A DNA stretch of 64,000 bases from Melioribacteraceae bacterium (GTDB lineage: Bacteria > Bacteroidota > Ignavibacteria > Ignavibacteriales > Melioribacteraceae): positions 2,017,511-2,081,510 of the forward strand of contig CP129490.1 of the NCBI GenBank assembly GCA_030584085.1, in the 5' to 3' direction. This document shows, piece by piece, positions 12,043 to 43,036 of the stretch. The position numbers and the translations under genes are program-made. The notes below the pieces were generated by a model. That model was given only the letters and a program-made list of their open reading frames with translations. It ran no database searches and had not been told where the DNA came from. How positions within the stretch are numbered: the stretch's first letter is position 1; each line of letters starts with the position of its first letter.

Positions 12043-15000
12043 ATGACAACTGAAGAACTTAATCAACTCCAAGAAGAAGCATACGACCATCTTTGGAACG
12101 GTAGATACAGAATGGCACTTGAAGCTGCCAAAAAGGTTTACCGTGACCGTCAGGATGATAGCGAATCTGCAATTTGTCTAGCCTGGGCTTTATTAGAAAA
12201 CGGTAACCCGGTTAAAGCTATGGAGTTTGCAAATTTAGCCGTTGAATTAAAAGGTGATTCAGTTAAGGCCCATCTTTACCGTGGTTATCTCTTAATGAGA
12301 ATGAGTATTTTTGAAGGTGCGGTTTCCGATTTTGATTTTGCCATCAATCAACAAAAAGAATCTCTTGCATGGGCTTACTTAAACAAAGCTAGAACACTCG
12401 CCGGAATGGAAAAATTTTCCGAAGCCGAGAAGACATTAGAACTTGCTATACTAATTGATCGCGGTAAAAATCCGGCATGGAATGATATTAAGAAATGGTA
12501 CGCTTCCGCCAAAAACATTAACAAGGGTATTGAAAAATTTGATCACAAAAAGATAAAGGAATATTTACTTAGATGTTCAGATGCAATTAAACAAAAAGAA
12601 TATTGGTATGCGTTAAAAATATCTCGTCTAATACAAAATGATTCAGCGGTTAAAAAAGATGAAAAGTTAGCTGCTGAATATGTTGAGCTGGAAGCGATGT
12701 TTTATCTTTATCAATTTAGACCAGCTCTTAAAAAGGCCGAAAAACTTAAGAGCAAGTTTAAGAAAGATGACAAGTTCAACAGTTTATATAATTCTCTTAT
12801 AAAATTAACTTCACAATCAGAATCCGACAAAATTGATAAAGAACTTGCGTCAACATCATTAACTTCACCAAGTGATCCTAATCGCAAAACCAGAACATCG
12901 GAGATTAACGGGAAAACTCACGCATTATTTTTCCCAAATAAAAATGCTGATGTTTTTTCCGCAAAAATATTTAACGGTGATGATGATGAAAGTTCTGGCA
13001 ATAAAACATATTATCTTGCACTCGATCCGGATTCAGTTAAGAACATTGGTTTAGAGGTCATATTTAACAATCCATACTATGATGAAAAGAATAAGGATTA
13101 CGATTGTAAACTGATTTGGTATCTGAATGATTTTGAAATTGCTCAATCGCCTTTCAAACTTAATGTTAAGAAAAGTTGGGACTCGGTTATTTTTGTTCAA
13201 ACTCTTCAATCAAACGGTAAGGTCAAAATTACAACCGGTCAAGCTAGAGTCGATGTCTATATTGATAATTTTAAAGTTTGTGAAAAATGGTTTATACTTG
13301 GCGATCGTAATATTAAACAGCATATCGAATCACCAAATGTTCCTCGTGATTCCAAACCACCGAAAACAGAAACAACGGAAGATAAAAATAAAGTTGAAAT
13401 CTCTGCACAAATACATGAATCGGATTCAACAAAATCACTCGAAGAACTACTTGAAGAACTTAACAAGTTTATTGGATTGAATAACGTAAAAAATTCTTTA
13501 AAAGATTTTGTCGATTACCTAAAGTTTATGCAAGAACGACAAAAACTTGGATTGAAATCAACAGAAAAACTTTCGCTTCACACTTTATTCCTAGGAAATC
13601 CCGGAACTGGTAAAACTACAATTGCAAGATTACTCGGTCAGATTTTTAAGACTATGGGAATACTTGATCGCGGTCATGTAGTTGAAGTCGATAGAAGCGG
13701 TTTAGTCGGGCAATTCATTGGTGAGACTGCTCAAAAAACCGAGAAAGTTATAGCTGCTTCTTTAGGTGGAGTTTTATTTATTGATGAAGCTTATACACTT
13801 TCAAAAAAAGGCGGAAGCGGACAAGATTTCGGTCAAGAGGCAATCGATGTTTTATTAAAGCGAATGGAAGATAAAAAAGGTGAATTTTTTGTGATAGCAG
13901 CCGGTTATCCGGAAGAGATGCAAATCTTTATGGATTCAAATCCGGGATTGAAATCGCGTTTTGCTAGAACATTTATGTTCGAAGATTATTCACCTGATGA
14001 ACTTTTACAAATTTATTTAAAGCAGCTTGAATCCGAAGAATACAAAATAAAAGATGATGCAAAAGAAGTTGTTAAAAAACATTTAATCAACCTCTACCGA
14101 AAGCGTGACAAATCATTTGGCAATGCTCGTCTTTGCATTCAGTTTTTTGAGGATTCTAAGATTAACATTGGCAAACGTTATTTAAGTTTACCCGATGATC
14201 AGAAAACCAAAGAACAAATGACCACAATTTTTGCAGATGATGTTCAAAGGTTGTTAGTTGAAGAAACTACTGATGATGTAAAAATTCCTATTAACGAAGA
14301 AGCTTTAACAGAAGCATTAAGCGAACTAAATAGTCTCACCGGAATTGAATCAGTTAAAAATGATATAAAAGATATAGTAAAACTTGTCCGATACTATCAT
14401 GAAAAGAATGAAGATGTAAGCGATAAATTTTCTTCGCATATTCTGTTTGTTGGAAATCCCGGAACTGGTAAAACAACCGTAGCTCGATTAGTAAGTTCAA
14501 TATATGCCGCATTAGGAATTCTTAAAAAAGGTCACATGATCGAAACCGATCGCCAAGGATTGGTTGCTAGTTATGTTGGACAAACTGCAGAGAAGACAAA
14601 ATCCATAATCGATAAATCAATCGGCGGAACATTATTTATTGATGAAGCATATGCTCTGGTAAAAAAAGATGGCGGCGGTAATGATTTCGGTAACGAAGCA
14701 GTAGATGTTCTAATCAAGCGCATGGAAGATGATCGTGGTAAATTTATTGTCATTGCTGCCGGTTACACGGATGAAATGAAAAGATTTTTAGAAAGCAATC
14801 CTGGTCTTCAATCACGATTTACAAAAACATTTCACTTCAAAGATTATGATCCAAATGAACTAATGGAAATAACGGCATATAACTTTAATAAATCCAATCT
14901 AAAACTTTCTGAGGATGCTTACGAGAAATTAATGATTTACTATAATGAAATGTATCGGAACAGAGATAAAAATTTCGGTAATGCAAGAATCGTTAGAGCG

Positions 15001-15978
15001 ATTGTAGATAAAGCTAAACAGAATGCTTTATTAAGAAAAGCAGAGCCAAAAAACGATTCGAAAAAAGTTGAAGAAAATTTAATAATCTGTGAAGATATTA
15101 AATCAATAATATCAACAGAGGAACAGAGAGAAACTTACCAAATTATTGGCGATCCGGAAAAGTTAGAAAAAGAATTGCTTGAACTAAATTCCCTTACGGG
15201 TTTGGAATCGGTTAAAACTAGTGTTGAAAAATTAATTAGTTCTATAAAAGTTTCGCAGTTACGTAAACAACAAGGCTTAAAAGTAATTGAAAAAAGTTTA
15301 CATGCTGTGTTTGTCGGAAACCCGGGAACCGGTAAAACAACCGTAGCCAGAATTTTGAGCAACATCTATAAAGAACTCGGTTTATTAGAAAAAGGTCATC
15401 TTGTTGAAGTTGATAGAGCCGGACTTGTTGCCGGATATCAAGGACAAACCGCTATAAAAACCAATGATGTTATTCAACAAGCTCTAGGCGGAACTCTTTT
15501 TATTGATGAAGCTTATACTCTATCTCGTGGTGTTAATGATTTTGGTCAAGAAGCAATTGATACTCTGTTAAAAAGAATGGAAGATAATCGCGGACAATTC
15601 GTAGTAATTGTTGCTGGTTATCCGGCTGAGATGAAAAAGTTTATCTCTTCAAATCCGGGACTTCAATCTCGCTTCGAAAATATTCTTGATTTTGAAGATT
15701 ATAACGCGAGACAACTTTTAGAAATTTCCGCAGAGATAGCCGTTCAGCACGGGTATAATCTTGACGAAGGTGCCTTACAATTATTGTTGGAAATCTTTCA
15801 ATCACTTTATAGTGAACGTGATAAAAATTTCGGGAACGCCCGTACCGCTAAGAATATTTTATATAAAGCAATTAGTTACCAAGAAGAACGAATTTCTCAA
15901 ATGTTTGAACACAGTAAAGATGATTTAATGACGATTCGCTTTGAGGACGTAGAAAAAGTTAAAAAAGAATTAATTTGA
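12043..15978 (+). CDS. TPR protein with three tandem CbxX/CfxQ-type AAA+ ATPase modules
   Basis: A 1311-residue cytosolic protein without signal peptide. Residues 1-160 are TPR-like helical repeats (ESAICLAWALLENGNPVKAM, then AHLYRGYLLMRMSIFEGAV). Residues 290-420 look beta-rich and hold an immunoglobulin-like accessory domain. Three AAA modules follow, each starting with an ELN...GL(N/E)(N/S)VK segment. Walker A GNPGTGKTT occurs near residues 518, 803 and 1091. Each module also has Walker B LFIDEAY and an arginine-finger motif NPGL(K/Q)SRF. All nucleotide-binding residues are intact in the three. The modules are clearly of the CbbX/SpoVK/EccA class, which remodel protein partners, but no Rubisco or type VII secretion gene is near. 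The ABC transporter genes start 17 bases after its stop, suggesting one operon. Confidence 0.9.
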   Translation: MTTEELNQLQEEAYDHLWNGRYRMALEAAKKVYRDRQDDSESAICLAWALLENGNPVKAMEFANLAVELKGDSVKAHLYRGYLLMRMSIFEGAVSDFDFAINQQKESLAWAYLNKARTLAGMEKFSEAEKTLELAILIDRGKNPAWNDIKKWYASAKNINKGIEKFDHKKIKEYLLRCSDAIKQKEYWYALKISRLIQNDSAVKKDEKLAAEYVELEAMFYLYQFRPALKKAEKLKSKFKKDDKFNSLYNSLIKLTSQSESDKIDKELASTSLTSPSDPNRKTRTSEINGKTHALFFPNKNADVFSAKIFNGDDDESSGNKTYYLALDPDSVKNIGLEVIFNNPYYDEKNKDYDCKLIWYLNDFEIAQSPFKLNVKKSWDSVIFVQTLQSNGKVKITTGQARVDVYIDNFKVCEKWFILGDRNIKQHIESPNVPRDSKPPKTETTEDKNKVEISAQIHESDSTKSLEELLEELNKFIGLNNVKNSLKDFVDYLKFMQERQKLGLKSTEKLSLHTLFLGNPGTGKTTIARLLGQIFKTMGILDRGHVVEVDRSGLVGQFIGETAQKTEKVIAASLGGVLFIDEAYTLSKKGGSGQDFGQEAIDVLLKRMEDKKGEFFVIAAGYPEEMQIFMDSNPGLKSRFARTFMFEDYSPDELLQIYLKQLESEEYKIKDDAKEVVKKHLINLYRKRDKSFGNARLCIQFFEDSKINIGKRYLSLPDDQKTKEQMTTIFADDVQRLLVEETTDDVKIPINEEALTEALSELNSLTGIESVKNDIKDIVKLVRYYHEKNEDVSDKFSSHILFVGNPGTGKTTVARLVSSIYAALGILKKGHMIETDRQGLVASYVGQTAEKTKSIIDKSIGGTLFIDEAYALVKKDGGGNDFGNEAVDVLIKRMEDDRGKFIVIAAGYTDEMKRFLESNPGLQSRFTKTFHFKDYDPNELMEITAYNFNKSNLKLSEDAYEKLMIYYNEMYRNRDKNFGNARIVRAIVDKAKQNALLRKAEPKNDSKKVEENLIICEDIKSIISTEEQRETYQIIGDPEKLEKELLELNSLTGLESVKTSVEKLISSIKVSQLRKQQGLKVIEKSLHAVFVGNPGTGKTTVARILSNIYKELGLLEKGHLVEVDRAGLVAGYQGQTAIKTNDVIQQALGGTLFIDEAYTLSRGVNDFGQEAIDTLLKRMEDNRGQFVVIVAGYPAEMKKFISSNPGLQSRFENILDFEDYNARQLLEISAEIAVQHGYNLDEGALQLLLEIFQSLYSERDKNFGNARTAKNILYKAISYQEERISQMFEHSKDDLMTIRFEDVEKVKKELI

Positions 15979-27543: not shown

Positions 27544-28095
27544 TTAAATCATCTCACTCATCAATTCTTTGCGTGGCTGCGGGATTACAACTTTGTTAAC
27601 GAGCAAACCTTTATCTGCAATAACTTGAGCACCAGCATCAACCGCACTTCTTACTGCGGCTACTTCGCCTGTCAACGTACAAAATGCTTTTCCGCCGAGT
27701 GCCATTGCCAATCTTATTTCAATCAATTGAACACTTGCGGCTTTAACGGCGGCATCGGCTCCTTCAATCAAGGAGGCAACCGAAAATGATTCAATAATTC
27801 CTAATGCTTCCAATTCAGTTGCGAGAGTATGACCGGAAAGTGCCGGGAAAACATCCGGATGAACATGAGGAATAACAAAAGTATCAATTACTGCAAAATC
27901 AATCTGTGTTGAGGCAGCATCGATCGCTGATTGAACTTCTGCGACTTCACCACCGATTAAAACCATATATTTACCTGAACATATCGTACGTGAAAGAACA
28001 AGTTCGACTTGCGATGTTTTTAACATAATATCAGCTGCTTGCATTCCCGCTGCAATACTTGTCATCTCAATCAATCCAAGTGAATTCATTTGCAT
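27544..28095 (-). CDS. pduT: Tandem-BMC shell protein with Fe-S pore cysteine (PduT-like)
   Basis: 183 residues containing two BMC domains in tandem (about 4-85 and 95-175), as in trimeric BMC-T shell proteins. The first repeat has SLGLIEMTSIAAGMQAAD and the second has LGIIESFSVASLIEGADAAV. The loop RTICSGKY places Cys39 at the position that in PduT of Salmonella lines the central pore and holds a shared 4Fe-4S cluster. This supports an electron-conducting pore rather than a metabolite gate. It lies 12 bases after the PduS-like gene, its known partner in propanediol microcompartments. No hexameric or pentameric shell gene is in the window, so the rest of the compartment must be elsewhere or absent. 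Confidence 0.9.
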   Translation of the reverse strand: MQMNSLGLIEMTSIAAGMQAADIMLKTSQVELVLSRTICSGKYMVLIGGEVAEVQSAIDAASTQIDFAVIDTFVIPHVHPDVFPALSGHTLATELEALGIIESFSVASLIEGADAAVKAASVQLIEIRLAMALGGKAFCTLTGEVAAVRSAVDAGAQVIADKGLLVNKVVIPQPRKELMSEMI

Positions 28096-28107
28096 AATGA
28101 TACCTTT

Positions 28108-29421
28108 CTATTTTGAAATTCTTATAAATTCTTCATTAATATGTGATATTTTTCCACTAATCGATGCATGAATGGTTGAACCAAGTTTTCCTTCTTCAGG
28201 TTTCGCTATTACATCCCCAACCTTGACTATATCTCCGATATTAACCAAGGAAATTGCCGGTGCACCAACATGCTGCTTCAACTTTATTTTTACCGAATTG
28301 GGTTGCGGTCTATTGCTATTATAAGGTGTGTCTTTTTCATATTCCTCTACATTTAATCTCTTCCGCAACTGCTTCAATGGAACCCGTCTTCCCTCTTTAA
28401 TAGGATGAACTTTAACAGGTTTTTGTTGTTCATATTTTTCGCCATTCACGCGCATTTCTTCTTTACTCTGCACACATGCTTCACGTGGATATAAATCTTC
28501 GGGACAAGCGTATAATGAACAAAGCCCGCAAGCACAACAAAGATCCGCATATTGATTCCATAAATCCTTACCCGATGCTGTGAATTGTAATGACCGCATC
28601 ACTTTATGAGGTTGAACATCATAGCCGAGTAAATAACGCGGACAGAATTCAGTACAATAACTACATTGATCGCAAGCCGATTTACCTATACGATTCATGT
28701 CCTCTTTCGGTCGTTCCATTCTATTAATCATATAATGATTCTTAGGGAGAACGATTATCGCTGCCGTTGTTTTTGTTACAACTTCAGAGAGATCGAACGT
28801 TAATGTACCCATCAGTAAACCACCGATGAATATTCCATAATCATTAACAGTAGCTCCGCCAGCATGTTTAATTAGTTCTTCAAAACTGGTCCCAACCGGA
28901 GCAAAAAATGTTGATGGATTTCTCACCGCTCCGGCAACACAAACAAATTTCTCAGTTACGGGTATTCCTTCAGATGCACGACTGACATTATAAAATGTTT
29001 CCACATTGTTGACAACACATCCAACATCGAGTGGAATTCCATGAGGCGGAATTAATCTTTTTGTAGCTTCGTAAACTAACTCGTATTCATCACCGGATGG
29101 ATAAAAGTCACCAAGAATTGTCAAATCAATTTTTCCGTTGGTGAATTCATTTTGAATTTTTTCCATCGCAATCGTGTTCTTTGATTTTATTCCAAAAAAA
29201 CCTTTCTTCGCTTTTGTCTGTTTTATCATTAATTCCATGCCATTAACAATTTCTTTCGGGAAATTTTTCATAATCTCAAGATCTTTATGAATCAACGGTT
29301 CACACTCGGCACCATTTGCTAACACAAATTCTACGGTTGATTTTGCTTTAATGTGTGTTGGGAAACCGGCACCGCCCGCACCAACAACTCCGGCTTCAAA
29401 CATTTTTTGGTCTAACGACAT
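28108..29421 (-). CDS. pduS: PduS-like RnfC-type flavoprotein NADH dehydrogenase
   Basis: 437 residues. The N-terminus GVVGAGGAGFPTHIKA is the nucleotide-binding Gly-rich start shared with RnfC and NuoF/SLBB proteins, followed by NGAECEPLIHKD. Two 4Fe-4S motifs are seen: CDQCSYCTEFCPR (about 249-261) and CCACGLCSLYACP (about 291-303). A C-terminal RnfC-like barrel (VKIKLKQHVGAPA...VGDVIA) completes the known PduS layout. In characterised systems PduS reduces cob(III)alamin or passes electrons across the shell through PduT. Here it lies between a PP2C phosphatase and the PduT-like gene, with 1- and 12-base gaps, so the three form one operon. Confidence 0.9.
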   Translation of the reverse strand: MSLDQKMFEAGVVGAGGAGFPTHIKAKSTVEFVLANGAECEPLIHKDLEIMKNFPKEIVNGMELMIKQTKAKKGFFGIKSKNTIAMEKIQNEFTNGKIDLTILGDFYPSGDEYELVYEATKRLIPPHGIPLDVGCVVNNVETFYNVSRASEGIPVTEKFVCVAGAVRNPSTFFAPVGTSFEELIKHAGGATVNDYGIFIGGLLMGTLTFDLSEVVTKTTAAIIVLPKNHYMINRMERPKEDMNRIGKSACDQCSYCTEFCPRYLLGYDVQPHKVMRSLQFTASGKDLWNQYADLCCACGLCSLYACPEDLYPREACVQSKEEMRVNGEKYEQQKPVKVHPIKEGRRVPLKQLRKRLNVEEYEKDTPYNSNRPQPNSVKIKLKQHVGAPAISLVNIGDIVKVGDVIAKPEEGKLGSTIHASISGKISHINEEFIRISK

Positions 29422-29422
29422 T

Positions 29423-30658
29423 TTATCCCTTTCGTTTAATCACTACTATGGTTTTATCGTCTTGATATTTGCTATCGGTTGTGGAAAATTTTGTAACATC
29501 CTCAATAATTGTCATCGCAATTTCTTTGGGTGTTCTGGCAACATTAGCTTTGATAATTTCTTTTAATCTTTCTTCTTCATAAAACTCAAAGTTTTGATTT
29601 GCGGCTTCTGTTACTCCATCGGAGTAAATAACTAAAATATCTCCCTCACTAAAATTAAAGCTATCAGTGCTGTAAGTTGAGTGCGGAGCCGGTCCAATTA
29701 AAGGACCCGTAGGATCAAGATAGAAAAGTTCTTGTTTACTTTTATCAAAAAATATCGGCGGATTATGACCGGCATTAGCATATAAACATAATCCTTTTTT
29801 ATCAGTTGATATTTCGCAATAGAAGAGTGAAGAAAATTTATCATCTTCAAAAATTTTATTCACCAATTCATTCATACGATAAAATAAAGGTGAAATTTTT
29901 ATTTCAAATGTACATGCCATTCTTAATGCACCCGAAATGTACATTGCTTCTGCCGCAGCAGCCAAACCCTTTGAAGCAGCATCACCAACAGCTATACCAA
30001 GTCTATCACCATGCGGACCAATTTCGAGGTAATCGAAAAAATCACCGCCAACTATATATGCCGGTAAGGTAATGCCAAAAAGATCATAATTATGAAAACT
30101 ATATTCATGTTCCGGAAGAATACTTTTTTGAAGTTGTTTTGCTCTATCAATATCTTCAATTAAATCTTTTCTTGAATTGGACAATCGCCATGCGTTTAAT
30201 TTGGATGTAAGTACTGTAGCAACAATGTTCAATGTGTAGCTAAGATCTTCATTTTTTTCTTCACTGTTAACAGCAAGCATGTATTCATAATATCTATCGG
30301 CACCTATTTTTATTTTTAAACCAACACCCGATGCAGAATACTTAAAAATACCTTTGCTTTTTAGAATTTGGTTTGTTTCATCAGCGAGAATTGTCCTTTC
30401 TTTAGTTATTTCTTTGAAGATAGGATATTCTTCTACAGGTAGTAAGAAATCCGCAGGAATCTTTTGAACATCACCGGTTTGATAAACTAGAGTATATGCT
30501 TTCGCAAGTTTGTTGAGTCTCCAAATTCGCCCGCCGGTTACGTTGATTTGTTCTCTCGCAACAACTTGGTTTAATACTTCGATTAGCATTTCTTCTTCAC
30601 TTTTAAACCGACGAGATGCAATTGTGTCTAATGTCTTGTATAATTTCCTTTGTTCCAT
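29423..30658 (-). CDS. PP2C-family (SpoIIE/RsbU-type) serine phosphatase with N-terminal sensor region
   Basis: 411 residues. The C-terminal 230 residues are a PPM phosphatase: GGDFFDYLEI (about 204-213), GIAVGDAASKGLAAA with the metal-binding Asp, LYANAGHNPP, GDILVIYSDGVTEA, and a final DDKTIVVIKR strand. Metal-binding Asp residues are all present. The N-terminal 160 residues lack a transmembrane segment and look like a GAF-type sensor (VGLKIKIGADRYYEYML), joined by a helix (DIDRAKQLQKSILPEHEY) typical of RsbU-like enzymes. These usually dephosphorylate STAS anti-anti-sigma factors. No sigma-factor gene is near. It is the first gene of the PduS-PduT operon, an unusual place. Confidence 0.9.
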   Translation of the reverse strand: MEQRKLYKTLDTIASRRFKSEEEMLIEVLNQVVAREQINVTGGRIWRLNKLAKAYTLVYQTGDVQKIPADFLLPVEEYPIFKEITKERTILADETNQILKSKGIFKYSASGVGLKIKIGADRYYEYMLAVNSEEKNEDLSYTLNIVATVLTSKLNAWRLSNSRKDLIEDIDRAKQLQKSILPEHEYSFHNYDLFGITLPAYIVGGDFFDYLEIGPHGDRLGIAVGDAASKGLAAAAEAMYISGALRMACTFEIKISPLFYRMNELVNKIFEDDKFSSLFYCEISTDKKGLCLYANAGHNPPIFFDKSKQELFYLDPTGPLIGPAPHSTYSTDSFNFSEGDILVIYSDGVTEAANQNFEFYEEERLKEIIKANVARTPKEIAMTIIEDVTKFSTTDSKYQDDKTIVVIKRKG

Positions 30659-39877: not shown

Positions 39878-40273
39878 ATGGATTCATTAGCACTAGGTAA
39901 AAAAGCAATCGCAGCTAAATCAAAATCATTAGCTCAATATTCAAATTTTCATGTAGGCGCCGCACTTAAAACAAAAAGTGGAAAAATTTATGAAGGTGCA
40001 AATATTGAATCATCTTCATACAGCTTGACGATATGCGCGGAAAGAACAGCTGTTTTTCAAGCTATATTAGAAGGTGAACGAGAATTTGATTCAATCGCAA
40101 TAGCGAGTGATGCTAAAGAATTTTGTCCACCCTGCGGAGCTTGCCGACAAGTATTATTAGATCTTTGCGGTAAAGATTTGGATATTATTTTAATCAATTC
40201 AAAAGAAGAAATTATTAAATATAAAATTACCGAACTTATTCCCCATTCATTCGGGGAAGATTTCTTAAAATAA
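39878..40273 (+). CDS. cdd: Cytidine deaminase
   Basis: Deaminates cytidine and deoxycytidine in pyrimidine salvage. 131 residues, the homotetrameric short form. Zn ligands are Cys53 (CAE, with catalytic Glu55), Cys86 and Cys89 in CPPCGACRQ. The substrate loop [21 protein letters not shown] is complete. It begins the salvage operon cdd-tdk-CNT-punA; the next gene starts 2 bases after its stop. Confidence 0.96.
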
Positions 40274-40275
40274 TT

Positions 40276-40854
40276 ATGATGGAATTTCAACCACACGCAA
40301 CCCCAAAAGAAACCGGCTGGATAGAAGTTGTGGCCGGATGTATGTTCAGCGGTAAAACCGAGGAACTAATTAGAAGATTAAGACGGGCACAAATCGCAAA
40401 ACTTCGTGTAAAAATTTTTAAACCGAAGATCGATAATCGCTATTCCGAAAATAAAATCGTTTCGCACAGTGAGCAATCATTGCCGTCAGAAGTTGTTTCT
40501 TCGGCACAAGAAATTTTAGAACTTTCTTCCGATGCTCAAGTTATCGGAATTGATGAAGCACAATTTTATGAAAGTGATTTAGTTGAAGTATGCAATAGAT
40601 TAGCCGATAGCGGAAAAAGAGTGATTGTAGCAGGACTCGATCAAGATTATAGAGGAATTCCATTTGAACCGATGCCTCAACTTTTAGCGATTGCAGAATA
40701 CATTACAAAAACATTAGCAATTTGTGTTAACTGCGGAAACCCAGCAGATAGAACTCAAAGAAAAATTAAATCGACAGACAGAGTTTTAGTCGGTGCTTCC
40801 GATAGTTATGAAGCCAGATGCCGCAGATGTCATTATATCCCTGAAACTGAATAA
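40276..40854 (+). CDS. tdk: Thymidine kinase
   Basis: Phosphorylates thymidine or deoxyuridine. 192 residues, class II kinase: P-loop [11 protein letters not shown] (about 21-31), Asp/Glu catalytic segment [14 protein letters not shown], the lasso with Zn-binding pairs CVNCG and CRRCH, and the RTQRK region. Met1 and Met2 are both possible starts. It follows cdd by 2 bases and precedes the CNT transporter by 8 bases, so uptake and trapping of nucleosides are co-expressed. Confidence 0.96.
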
Positions 40855-40862
40855 GGATTAAT

Positions 40863-42215
40863 ATGGATTTTATTGCCATACTTAGAGGAATTATTGGAAT
40901 CGGAGTATTAATTGGAATCGCTTTCCTATTATCTAACAATCGTACAAAAGTTAACTGGCGATTAGTCGGTACCGGTTTAGGATTGCAAATCCTTTTTGCC
41001 ATTCTAATTATAAAGGGGGAATTACTTGGTTCCTATTTTTCCCCGCTCGGTTGGCCAAAACAATTTTTCAGTTGGGTTAGTAGTTTCTTTGTTCTGGTTT
41101 TAAATTTTACCGGAGAAGGAGCAAAATTTGTTTTTGGTGATTTAGCAATTAGTCCGGGACAAGATGGTAGTCTAGGAATGTTCTTCGCATTTCAAGTTTT
41201 ACCTACCATAATTTTCTTTGCCAGTTTAATGTCAATTCTTTACTATCTCGGCATTATGCAAAGAGTAGTGCAAGGAATGGCGTGGGTTATGGCCAAGTTA
41301 ATGGGAACCAGTGGAGCAGAATCTCTTTCAGTTACAGCTAATATTTTTGTAGGCCAGACCGAAGCTCCGCTAATGATAAAACCATTTTTGAAGGGTTTAA
41401 CAAAAAGTGAATTACTCACCATCATGACAGGTGGAATGGCGACAATTGCAGGTGGCGTTATGGCAGCTTACATTCAAATGCTCGGTTATTCATTCTCACA
41501 ATCTATGGGATTACCACTCGAAGAAGCACAATTAATGTTCGCTACACATTTATTGGGAGCAAGCGTAATGGCTGCTCCAGCCGCTCTTTTAATTTCTAAA
41601 ATTATTTTTCCGGAAACTGACACACCCGAAACGAAAGGTGATGTAAAAGTAAATATTGAGAAAAATGCGTCTAATCTGATTGAATCGGCCGCAGTTGGTG
41701 CGGGAGATGGTCTAAAATTAGCTTTAAATGTCGGCGCTATGTTGATTGCTTTCATAGCTTTAATCGCTTTAGTTAATCATATTTTGATTGGACTTGGTGA
41801 TGTTTTTGGAATTAATACATTTTTTGAGACTGAGTTTGGAAAACCACTAAGTATGCAATTGCTGTTTGGTCTCGTGCTCCAATTTTTAGCATTTGCTATC
41901 GGAGTTCCATGGGAAAATGCATTAGAATTTGGAAGCTTGATAGGTACAAAAGTAGTTCTAAATGAATTTGTGGCATATTTTGATATGAGCCGGTTGATAG
42001 AATTAAAAACTCTAGTTAATGAAAAAGCAATTGTTATGGCTACATACGCGTTATGCGGATTTGCTAATTTCAGTTCTATTGCAATTCAATTGGGAGGAAT
42101 TACACCGCTTGCTCCCAATCGTGGGACAGATATCGCATCACTAGGAATAAAAGCAGTTATTGGCGGAACCTTGGCTACATTGATGACGGCAACTTTAGCA
42201 GGAATTTTATTTTAG
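40863..42215 (+). CDS. CNT-family concentrative nucleoside transporter (NupC-like)
   Basis: 450 residues with about ten membrane segments. The CNT hallmarks are visible: the early helices IGIGVLIGIAFLLS, GQTEAPLMIKPFL (helix hairpin, substrate/Na+ region), MATIAGGVMAAYIQ, SAVG-like NLIESAAVGAGDGLKLALNV, and GVPWENALEFGSLIG. These proteins bring in nucleosides with H+ or Na+. Ribosome site AAGGATTA precedes the ATG. Its TAG overlaps the GTG start of punA. The operon order couples uptake to cleavage. Confidence 0.94.
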   Translation: MDFIAILRGIIGIGVLIGIAFLLSNNRTKVNWRLVGTGLGLQILFAILIIKGELLGSYFSPLGWPKQFFSWVSSFFVLVLNFTGEGAKFVFGDLAISPGQDGSLGMFFAFQVLPTIIFFASLMSILYYLGIMQRVVQGMAWVMAKLMGTSGAESLSVTANIFVGQTEAPLMIKPFLKGLTKSELLTIMTGGMATIAGGVMAAYIQMLGYSFSQSMGLPLEEAQLMFATHLLGASVMAAPAALLISKIIFPETDTPETKGDVKVNIEKNASNLIESAAVGAGDGLKLALNVGAMLIAFIALIALVNHILIGLGDVFGINTFFETEFGKPLSMQLLFGLVLQFLAFAIGVPWENALEFGSLIGTKVVLNEFVAYFDMSRLIELKTLVNEKAIVMATYALCGFANFSSIAIQLGGITPLAPNRGTDIASLGIKAVIGGTLATLMTATLAGILF

Positions 42216-43036
42216 TGATAAACTTAACGGAAAAATATCGAGAACTCTTAAATCAAATTAAATCAAAAGCTCCTTTTACACCCGAAATCGGCTTAATTCT
42301 TGGCAGTGGATTAGGTGATTTTGCAACTAAAGTAGATACATCTTTATCAATTCCGACCGAATCGTTATCGAATTATCCAAAGTCAACTGTTGAAGGACAC
42401 AAGGGATTTATTCACTTTTCGAAATATGCCGGTAAAAATTTATTGATCTTCCAAGGCAGAATTCATTATTACGAAGGTTATCGATTATCCGAATGCGTGC
42501 TCCCGGTTTTAATTGCTTCCGAATTAGGTTGTAAAAATCTGATAATCACAAATGCTGCCGGTGGAGTAAATCCAAACTTTTCACCCGGTGATTTAATGCT
42601 GACGTTGGATTTTAATTCTCTAAATCTCAAAAAAGAAATCACCGAATTATTTGGTATAGCTACTGCCGAAGAAAAAAATTACTTACAAGACTTTCCTTCG
42701 AAGAAAATTAAATCAGCGATTCGAGAAGCTGCGTTGGATGAAAAAATTCCATTAAAAGAAGGCACATACATATTGACAAAAGGACCGAGTTATGAAAGTC
42801 CGGCTGAAATTAAAATGTATGGGAAATTAGGAATTGATGCCGTCGGAATGTCAACTGTTCATGAAGCTATATTCGGAATGAAGTTAGGATTAAAAGTCGG
42901 AGCAATTTCATTGATAACAAATCACGCTGCCGGAATCTCCCCTCAAAAATTATCTCATCAAGAAGTAATGGAAACAGCCGATCATTCAAAAGTGATGTTC
43001 GAGCGATTAATTAAGAAAACCATTTCGCTTTTGTAA
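42215..43036 (+). CDS. punA: Purine nucleoside phosphorylase (trimeric, type I)
   Basis: Splits purine nucleosides with phosphate to base and ribose 1-phosphate. 273 residues with LILGSGLGDFA (phosphate loop), VEGHKGFIHF, LIFQGRIHYYEGY, ITNAAGGVNPNFSPGDLM, GPSYESPAEIKM, and GMSTVHEAI with the base-binding region. The GTG start overlaps the transporter stop (TAGTG), so the upstream gene drives it. Last gene of the salvage operon. It converges with rsmE 18 bases later, and no hairpin lies in the gap. Confidence 0.95.
   Translation: MINLTEKYRELLNQIKSKAPFTPEIGLILGSGLGDFATKVDTSLSIPTESLSNYPKSTVEGHKGFIHFSKYAGKNLLIFQGRIHYYEGYRLSECVLPVLIASELGCKNLIITNAAGGVNPNFSPGDLMLTLDFNSLNLKKEITELFGIATAEEKNYLQDFPSKKIKSAIREAALDEKIPLKEGTYILTKGPSYESPAEIKMYGKLGIDAVGMSTVHEAIFGMKLGLKVGAISLITNHAAGISPQKLSHQEVMETADHSKVMFERLIKKTISLL

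Follow-up and report, generated by a model that had tools for sequence, protein, structure and literature searches.

A PduS-like protein and a PduT-like shell protein as a probable fragment of a dispersed, FRAG-type deoxyribose metabolosome in Ignavibacteriales

The window analysed here, a 64-kb stretch of DNA (positions 2017511-2081510 of a 3,742,376-base single-contig Ignavibacteriales genome, G000), carries on its minus strand a cassette of three genes for a SpoIIE-family serine phosphatase, a PduS/RnfC-like flavo-iron-sulfur protein (hereafter PduS) and a shell protein of bacterial microcompartments (BMCs) of the trimer-forming class, BMC-T. The gene order and the gaps of 1 base (phosphatase/PduS) and 12 bases (PduS/BMC-T), given in a preliminary description of this DNA, are borne out by the coordinates of the open reading frames. 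According to Pfam, the phosphatase matches SpoIIE (PF07228, 151 bits), PduS has Complex1_51K, SLBB, 4Fe-4S and RnfC_N domains, and BMC-T has two BMC domains (PF00936, 154 bits). Because its best NCBIfam match, eut_PduT (TIGR02526), scores 130 bits against a cut-off of 250, BMC-T is called PduT-like on its sequence, rather than a PduT equivalog. PduS scores 235 bits with rnfC (cut-off 246) and 204 bits with PrdC (cut-off 490), and RnfC subunits are its closest solved relatives. The families named in the preliminary description fit these results, although its term 'electron transfer flavoprotein' was loose for an RnfC/PduS-type flavo-iron-sulfur protein. AlphaFold2 models of the phosphatase and PduS (mean pLDDT 32.8 and 28.0) were not used. 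The PduS and BMC-T genes are probably a fragment of a dispersed deoxyribose metabolosome of the FRAG type, which would export electrons through PduS and BMC-T and appears to be widespread in Ignavibacteriales.

The pore cysteine expected of a PduT-like protein is present as Cys39 in the motif SRTICSGK, where it aligns with Cys of 3pac and 3nwg, and with Ser of 3n79, which we take to be a C38S mutant; the motif is kept in 35/35 BMC-T proteins from other genomes. Likewise, the cluster cysteines of PduS (250/253/256/260 and 295/298/301/306) are kept in 34/34 sequences, that of the window included. Named relatives of the PduS gene are found in an Ignavibacteriales metagenome-assembled genome (98%), an Ignavibacteria one (87%) and one labelled Melioribacter roseus (86%), a species of the Ignavibacteriota, Ignavibacteriales, Melioribacteraceae. 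The BMC-T gene carries the only BMC domains of the window, in agreement with the preliminary description, and an Rfam scan of the window gave zero matches.

The cassette was compared across 58 genomes of the order Ignavibacteriales, G000 included, in families labelled f1, f2 and f3. The 35 BMC-T loci comprise 33 from these genomes, among the matches listed, and two (L046, L048) from close named strains; one of the 35 (L069, in G035) is a different, contiguous locus. PduS adjoins BMC-T on the same strand in 33/35 loci, with gaps of 5 to 542 bases, the exceptions being L065, which ends at a contig edge, and L085, which has a partial PduS gene. Because the two genes stand side by side in so many loci, their neighbourhood exceeds chance. 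The phosphatase gene lies directly upstream in 23 of the 33 loci with both genes, so that the order of the cassette does recur in relatives; those of the 23 that come from comparison genomes are all f1 or f2, and the ten loci without the phosphatase upstream are all f3, one being L069. The latter is a contiguous BMC locus with EUT-like genes, Pta, an ALDH-like gene, PduS and a Cys-bearing BMC-T (names partly by eye), and G035 has no scattered shell set. The PduS gene of G010 (L055:4847-6150) reads in two overlapping frames, as after a frameshift.

Other shell genes do exist in the genome of the window, far from the cassette and scattered over the chromosome. Searches for BMC domains (PF00936, E <= 0.001) and BMC-P genes (PF03319) found four BMC domains, namely the two of BMC-T and those of two BMC-H genes at 2.3198-2.3203 Mb, as well as three BMC-P genes, a tandem pair at 2.4228-2.4233 Mb and a lone one at 0.881 Mb. 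The shell set therefore consists of 2 BMC-H, 1 BMC-T and 3 BMC-P genes at four places, none of which holds more than one shell class, BMC-H and BMC-P never occurring together. The idea that the cassette is a satellite of a distant BMC locus thus goes in the right direction as to the distant genes, but no main locus was found to which it could belong. Of the 58 genomes, 56 have BMC domains, 37 of them exactly four, and 52 have BMC-P, 37 of them exactly three; both numbers together, four and three, occur in 32. Six genomes have no BMC-P (G009, G020, G034, G039, G046, G057); among them G034 and G057 are without any BMC domain, G020 and G039 have one weaker BMC match each and G046 has two. PduL (PF06130) gave 0 matches in the genome of the window and was found in 5/58 genomes (G008, G010, G042, G053, G056), each time beside BMC-P of a contiguous cluster; in G053 and G042 all five BMC domains lie inside that cluster, which leaves no scattered set.

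The places of the shell genes are conserved in the loci examined. Homologues of RelA/SpoT and RuvX precede the BMC-H genes in 26/30 loci, among which G002 counts twice, and in 27/30 a YbbR homologue comes after them. In 29/30 loci the product of the second BMC-H gene, BMC-H2, ends, after a variable linker, in a conserved segment of ~42 residues (LNVHELRRLARSxxxFPIKGREISKANRxxLLxYF), the thirtieth (L043), without the segment, being a different locus. An assignment of this segment to Rho_N was rejected, as 1/16 members matched (E 0.017, 15.5 bits vs a cut-off of 24.9), and a PDB profile search with it gave chance-level matches only. A prophage-like element with an integrase-like gene, a tape-measure-like protein and a DnaC-like ATPase (names by eye) lies between BMC-H2 and YbbR in the genome of the window (L005:1700-11177, ~2.3097-2.3192 Mb); the two genes adjoin directly in relatives such as G002. 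Genes for a PIN-like protein and for small toxin-antitoxin-like proteins, also named by eye, lie between ruvX and the BMC-H pair of G009 (L233:3127-4200). At the BMC-P pair the genes stand in the order DeoB - (PIN) - BMC-P - BMC-P - sigma factor, all on the same strand; of 12 relatives' loci, 12 have DeoB, the two BMC-P genes and the sigma factor, and 8 have the PIN gene. DeoB is a phosphopentomutase (485 bits vs a cut-off of 341), directly upstream of and co-oriented with the pair in 12/12 loci. The gene after the pair, on the same strand in 12/12 loci, was named by eye as a sigma-70-type factor (L009:8884-9738). The lone BMC-P adjoins dprA (named by eye).

The first candidate for cargo is an acylating acetaldehyde dehydrogenase (ALDH). 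One of the six PF00171 matches in the genome of the window, at 865649-867241, belongs to the acylating acetaldehyde class and scores 615 bits with TIGR02518, just below the cut-off of 620. Its orthologs (E <= 1e-60) were found in 47/58 genomes and in none of the six without BMC-P. The 11 genomes without ALDH (G009, G020, G021, G023, G034, G035, G039, G042, G046, G053, G057) are those six, three with a contiguous locus only, and the incomplete G021 (68%) and G023 (90%). The C-terminus of the enzyme has a linker followed by SGISESDIQRIIAEFNNK. Among the best 30 of 49 matches, its own included, a similar tail after a variable linker was seen by eye in 30/30, and a strict motif for the tail found 27/30, missing the protein of the genome of the window itself. 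Mean conservation is 0.69 in the tail, 0.52 in the linker and 0.84 in the core. The tail is a candidate encapsulation peptide, which would target the enzyme to the lumen. A strict active-site motif, matched by 21/30, was too low in count to be used as evidence. The gap between ALDH and the lone BMC-P is 13.7 kb in the genome of the window and 9-28 kb in 15 f1/f2 genomes.

The second candidate is the deoxyribose-phosphate aldolase DeoC, found in 54/58 genomes and not in G001, G027, G031 and G040. That of the genome of the window scores 282 bits with TIGR00126 (cut-off 117) in a match starting only at residue 68, and PDB relatives match it from residues 61-72 onward; its first ~66 residues are therefore extra. 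Among 54 DeoC loci examined, the divergent form of G039 could not be scored; 45 of the remaining 53 have the extension (44 match the motif CxGW[AE], and that of G054, with CDAWE, was scored by eye). The other eight (G009, G020, G034, G035, G042, G046, G053, G057) have N-termini of 35-68 residues before the core which are unlike the extended ones. Glu15, Leu18, Tyr22, Cys28, Trp31 and Glu32 are invariant in the 45 extended proteins, and the first 20 residues look helical by eye. The extension resembles an encapsulation peptide and, like the tail of ALDH, may target its enzyme to the lumen; both candidate enzymes have a conserved terminal segment. DeoC is extended in 43 genomes with ALDH and unextended in 0, against 2 and 8 without ALDH (Fisher p 5e-8, kinship ignored); before G054 was moved the same table read 42, 1, 2 and 8 (p 4e-7). 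The genus g50 has both kinds of DeoC, extended in G055 and G056 and not in G053 and G057, which helps the association. In 19 f1/f2 genomes DeoC and the BMC-H pair share a contig, at a distance of 8.3-17.8 kb, and in others the two are on different contigs. The genome-wide search for BMC-H, BMC-P and signature enzymes that the preliminary description had suggested has thus brought out 2 BMC-H, 3 BMC-P, ALDH and an extended DeoC, all far from the cassette. Within the genome of the window, PduS is 13 bases from the nearest shell gene, and DeoB, ALDH and DeoC are 0.6, 13.7 and 16.2 kb away from theirs; the chance of a random gene lying so near one of the four places is ~0.002, 0.003, 0.03 and 0.04, respectively, as worked out after the fact and with synteny ignored.

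Substrate could be supplied by genes for nucleoside uptake and phosphorolysis, which form one apparent operon in the window, 9 kb from the cassette (Table 1). This operon lies <=20 kb from the cassette in 7/20 relatives (G002, G005, G010, G011, G016, G018, G025) and gives loose support for the substrate. Elsewhere in the window, positions 12043-15978 encode a 1311-residue protein, three stretches of which match SpoVK/CbbX-type AAA+ models.

Table 1. Coordinates of the cassette and the nucleoside operon (window positions) and of BMC-H2 (locus L005)
Feature	Position	Strand	Remarks
BMC-T shell protein, PduT-like	27544..28095	(-)	Tandem PF00936; trimer-forming class; Cys39 is the predicted pore 4Fe-4S ligand
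PduS/RnfC-like flavo-iron-sulfur protein	28108..29421	(-)	Nuo51 FMN domain, SLBB, two 4Fe-4S motifs, RnfC barrel
SpoIIE-family serine phosphatase	29423..30658	(-)	Widespread neighbour gene, probably no dedicated microcompartment part
Cytidine deaminase	39878..40273	(+)	First gene of nucleoside uptake/phosphorolysis operon; TIGR01354 142 bits, cut-off 114
Thymidine kinase	40276..40854	(+)	
CNT (NupC-type) nucleoside transporter	40863..42215	(+)	TIGR00804 405.6 bits, under cut-off 442; PF07662, PF07670, PF01773 over cut-offs
Purine-nucleoside phosphorylase	42215..43036	(+)	NF006054 270 bits, cut-off 218; would yield (deoxy)ribose-1-phosphate
BMC-H2	L005:11427-12059		Long linker and conserved ~42-residue C-terminal segment, weakly Rho_N-like

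If the PduS and BMC-T genes do belong to such a dispersed metabolosome, its shell would be built from the products of the scattered BMC-H, BMC-T and BMC-P genes and would presumably be closed. Deoxynucleosides would pass through the nucleoside transporter, nucleoside phosphorylase and phosphopentomutase to give the presumed substrate, deoxyribose-5-phosphate, from which DeoC would produce acetaldehyde and glyceraldehyde-3-phosphate, and ALDH would then convert acetaldehyde to acetyl-CoA. Since no PduL was found, and an alcohol dehydrogenase gene was not searched for, cofactor recycling is proposed to proceed via PduS and the Fe-S site of BMC-T. PduS would reoxidise NADH inside the shell and pass electrons on to BMC-T, whose 4Fe-4S cluster in the pore would let them leave the shell, a route that would stand in for the alcohol dehydrogenase of an ordinary metabolosome. 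A Pta-family match was found in 58/58 genomes with no special tie to the scattered shell, and the family was set aside as an uninformative indicator of CoA recycling.

Several observations weigh against this interpretation. The adjacency of DeoB and the BMC-P pair may be old synteny, since the block also contains ribosomal genes, and the genes between ALDH and the lone BMC-P are a conserved block of other genes. Closeness of DeoC and BMC-H is not seen in f3, where the two are far apart or unlinked, and the linkage of the nucleoside operon was unseen in 13/20 relatives, two of them f3, in a scan where the stretches of G032 and G033 were shorter than 20 kb. The amphipathic moment of the ALDH tail in the genome of the window is not exceptional (675/5000 shuffles as high), and the mean over the 30 tails, 0.59, is at about the 90th percentile of a background of 88 C-termini (median 0.34, 90th percentile 0.59). 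For the head of DeoC, 190/5000 shuffles are as high, with a mean over DeoC heads of 0.45. The DeoC tree is poorly resolved, and the extension needs 2 changes on it (2-4 in bootstraps), so that the association with ALDH rests on few independent events. The fragmented genomes G021 and G023 have the DeoC extension with no ALDH found, and G009, also without the extension, retains the BMC-H pair though it has neither BMC-P nor ALDH.

A wider claim, which we put forward as no better than possible, would join these features into an order-wide organelle without a locus. In the genome of the window, every piece of the shell is encoded next to a gene for one step of a common pathway, or no more than ~17 kb from it (DeoB at the BMC-P pair, DeoC at the BMC-H pair, ALDH at the lone BMC-P, PduS at BMC-T). 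Such a deoxyribose metabolosome might need neither alcohol dehydrogenase nor PduL, since its electrons would go out to respiration through an Fe-S pore, and the conserved C-terminal domain of the second BMC-H, on its long linker, might anchor the organelle to some part of the cell, possibly nucleic acid. If the proposed metabolosome is real, the FRAG form of Ignavibacteriales would feed on the sugar of DNA, with its cargo and electron outlet named, and a microcompartment would have been retained across most of an order despite the dispersal of its genes. It would also be a microcompartment in which the export of electrons takes the place of NAD+ recycling by alcohol dehydrogenase, and the claim would lend itself to tests in cultured species, Melioribacter roseus for example.

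The same dispersed shell and cargo could instead run in reverse, with ALDH reducing acetyl-CoA to acetaldehyde as an electron sink, DeoC condensing acetaldehyde with glyceraldehyde-3-phosphate and so storing carbon, and PduS and BMC-T importing electrons. DeoC and acylating ALDH are reversible enzymes, which agrees with such a course. DeoB beside the BMC-P pair and the nucleoside operon in the window point to catabolism, with the limits that DeoB is also a reversible enzyme and that the linkage of the operon is loose. PMC6281690 cites such a proposal for microcompartments of Atribacteria that contain DeoC and RpiB; for the present system we judge reverse operation unlikely.

It is likewise improbable that the shell encloses another aldehyde pathway, such as ethanol oxidation or the action of a class II aldolase on phosphates of the fuculose or rhamnulose type, with some other role for the DeoC extension. 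A class II aldolase gene does lie 4 kb from the lone BMC-P, in the block of ALDH, the enzyme or a homologue occurs in 53/58 genomes, and five relatives have a separate cluster of PduL and class II aldolase. The aldolase is, however, also present in G020, G034, G039, G046 and G057, which are without BMC-P, and it is missing from the block of L129 and L130, where ALDH and the lone BMC-P are kept; that of the genome of the window has no obvious terminal extension by eye. It was rejected as a signature enzyme, since its occurrence in BMC-P-less genomes makes it non-diagnostic.

Regulation of the PduS-BMC-T redox module by the phosphatase, which the preliminary description had raised as 'phosphatase control', would suit the 1-base gap and the order seen in 23/33 loci, and the distribution of the gene makes it very unlikely. 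Phosphatase orthologs (E <= 1e-40) were found in 52/58 genomes, eight of which lack the scattered shell set: G009, G034, G039, G046 and G057, all without BMC-P, and G035, G042 and G053, which have their shell genes in one contiguous locus. The search found none in G020 or in five genomes whose shell genes are of the scattered type, namely the 87%-complete G024, and G043, G044, G051 and G054. At 12/12 further phosphatase loci, from those eight genomes and four of f3 with the shell, neither PduS nor BMC-T lies beside the gene; the stretch examined includes ClpC and pterin dehydratase genes in 6/12, and PyrE-like and protease-like genes are frequent neighbours (by eye). The motifs GDA[AS]SKG and AGHNP are found in 21/23 and 19/23 of the phosphatases; the strict motifs GGDFFD (10/23) and [SY]DG[VI]TE (5/23) were low and were not used as evidence. 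Because of the 1-base gap, co-transcription of the phosphatase with PduS-BMC-T is likely in the family of the window. In f1 and f2 the gene upstream of the pair is a phosphatase gene which, to judge from its genomic distribution, has a wider history of its own. Since some genomes have the phosphatase and not this shell, and several have the shell and not the phosphatase, the latter is probably a neighbour only, and a role as dedicated regulator was rejected on this distribution and on the gene neighbourhood.

That PduS and BMC-T form a free electron-transfer module, as had also been supposed, or are remnants of a decayed microcompartment is scarcely credible, for although the window has no other shell gene, six relatives have no BMC-P and the PduS gene of G010 is split between frames, BMC-H, BMC-T and BMC-P co-occur and persist in most of the 58 genomes, at conserved places in the loci examined, and the pore and cluster cysteines are kept throughout.

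The proposed dispersed metabolosome may be set beside several known microcompartments. FRAG microcompartments were named in Ignavibacteriae by Sutter et al. (2021), who described a BMC-P triplet and shell genes spread over as many as six places and called these microcompartments 'enigmatic'; the main text of that paper gives no function for them, and the words PduS, PduT and phosphatase are absent from it (PMC8217296). Axen (2014) described M. roseus with seven BMC-P genes over five loci (PMC4207490). The present system shares with FRAG its occurrence in Ignavibacteriae, shell genes at several places (here four), mostly remote from enzyme genes, and three BMC-P genes, two in tandem and one alone (PMC8217296). 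It differs from the published FRAG in having two cargo candidates, an electron-export pair and a proposed substrate. Among open-licence PMC papers, taken without supplements, no paper was recognised as assigning a function to FRAG.

In working, the system resembles SPU microcompartments, which are read as DNA-degradation organelles with DeoC and AldDh; there, within a compact locus, DeoC gives acetaldehyde and glyceraldehyde-3-phosphate and the dehydrogenase gives acetyl-CoA (PMC8217296). Both systems have a DeoC-type aldolase with AldDh, for acetyl-CoA from deoxyribose-5-phosphate, and PduS occurs in Atribacteria versions of SPU (PMC4207490). The genes described here are, in contrast, spread over the chromosome, with no single main locus for enzymes and shell and no PduL. 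A remote DeoC whose N-terminal extension is like an encapsulation peptide occurs in some genomes with HO microcompartments, and this, together with three BMC-P genes, is a further likeness (PMC8217296). Haliangium ochraceum itself has a main locus, three BMC-T and one BMC-H (PMC4207490), unlike the one Cys-bearing PduT-like BMC-T and two BMC-H found here. With PDU the system shares a PduS-like protein and a Cys-bearing PduT-like BMC-T encoded side by side, a pair for which an electron route across the shell has been proposed (PMC4207490). It differs from complete metabolosomes of the PDU/EUT type in having no PduL in the genome, and its BMC-T scores under the PduT equivalog cut-off. Judged by its genes, the system is FRAG by anatomy and SPU-like in its working, and is not an SPU member, as it has no main locus (RpiB was not searched for). 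Beyond published work, this analysis contributes the pair of redox proteins, two candidates for cargo, a test of co-occurrence and the nucleoside genes nearby.

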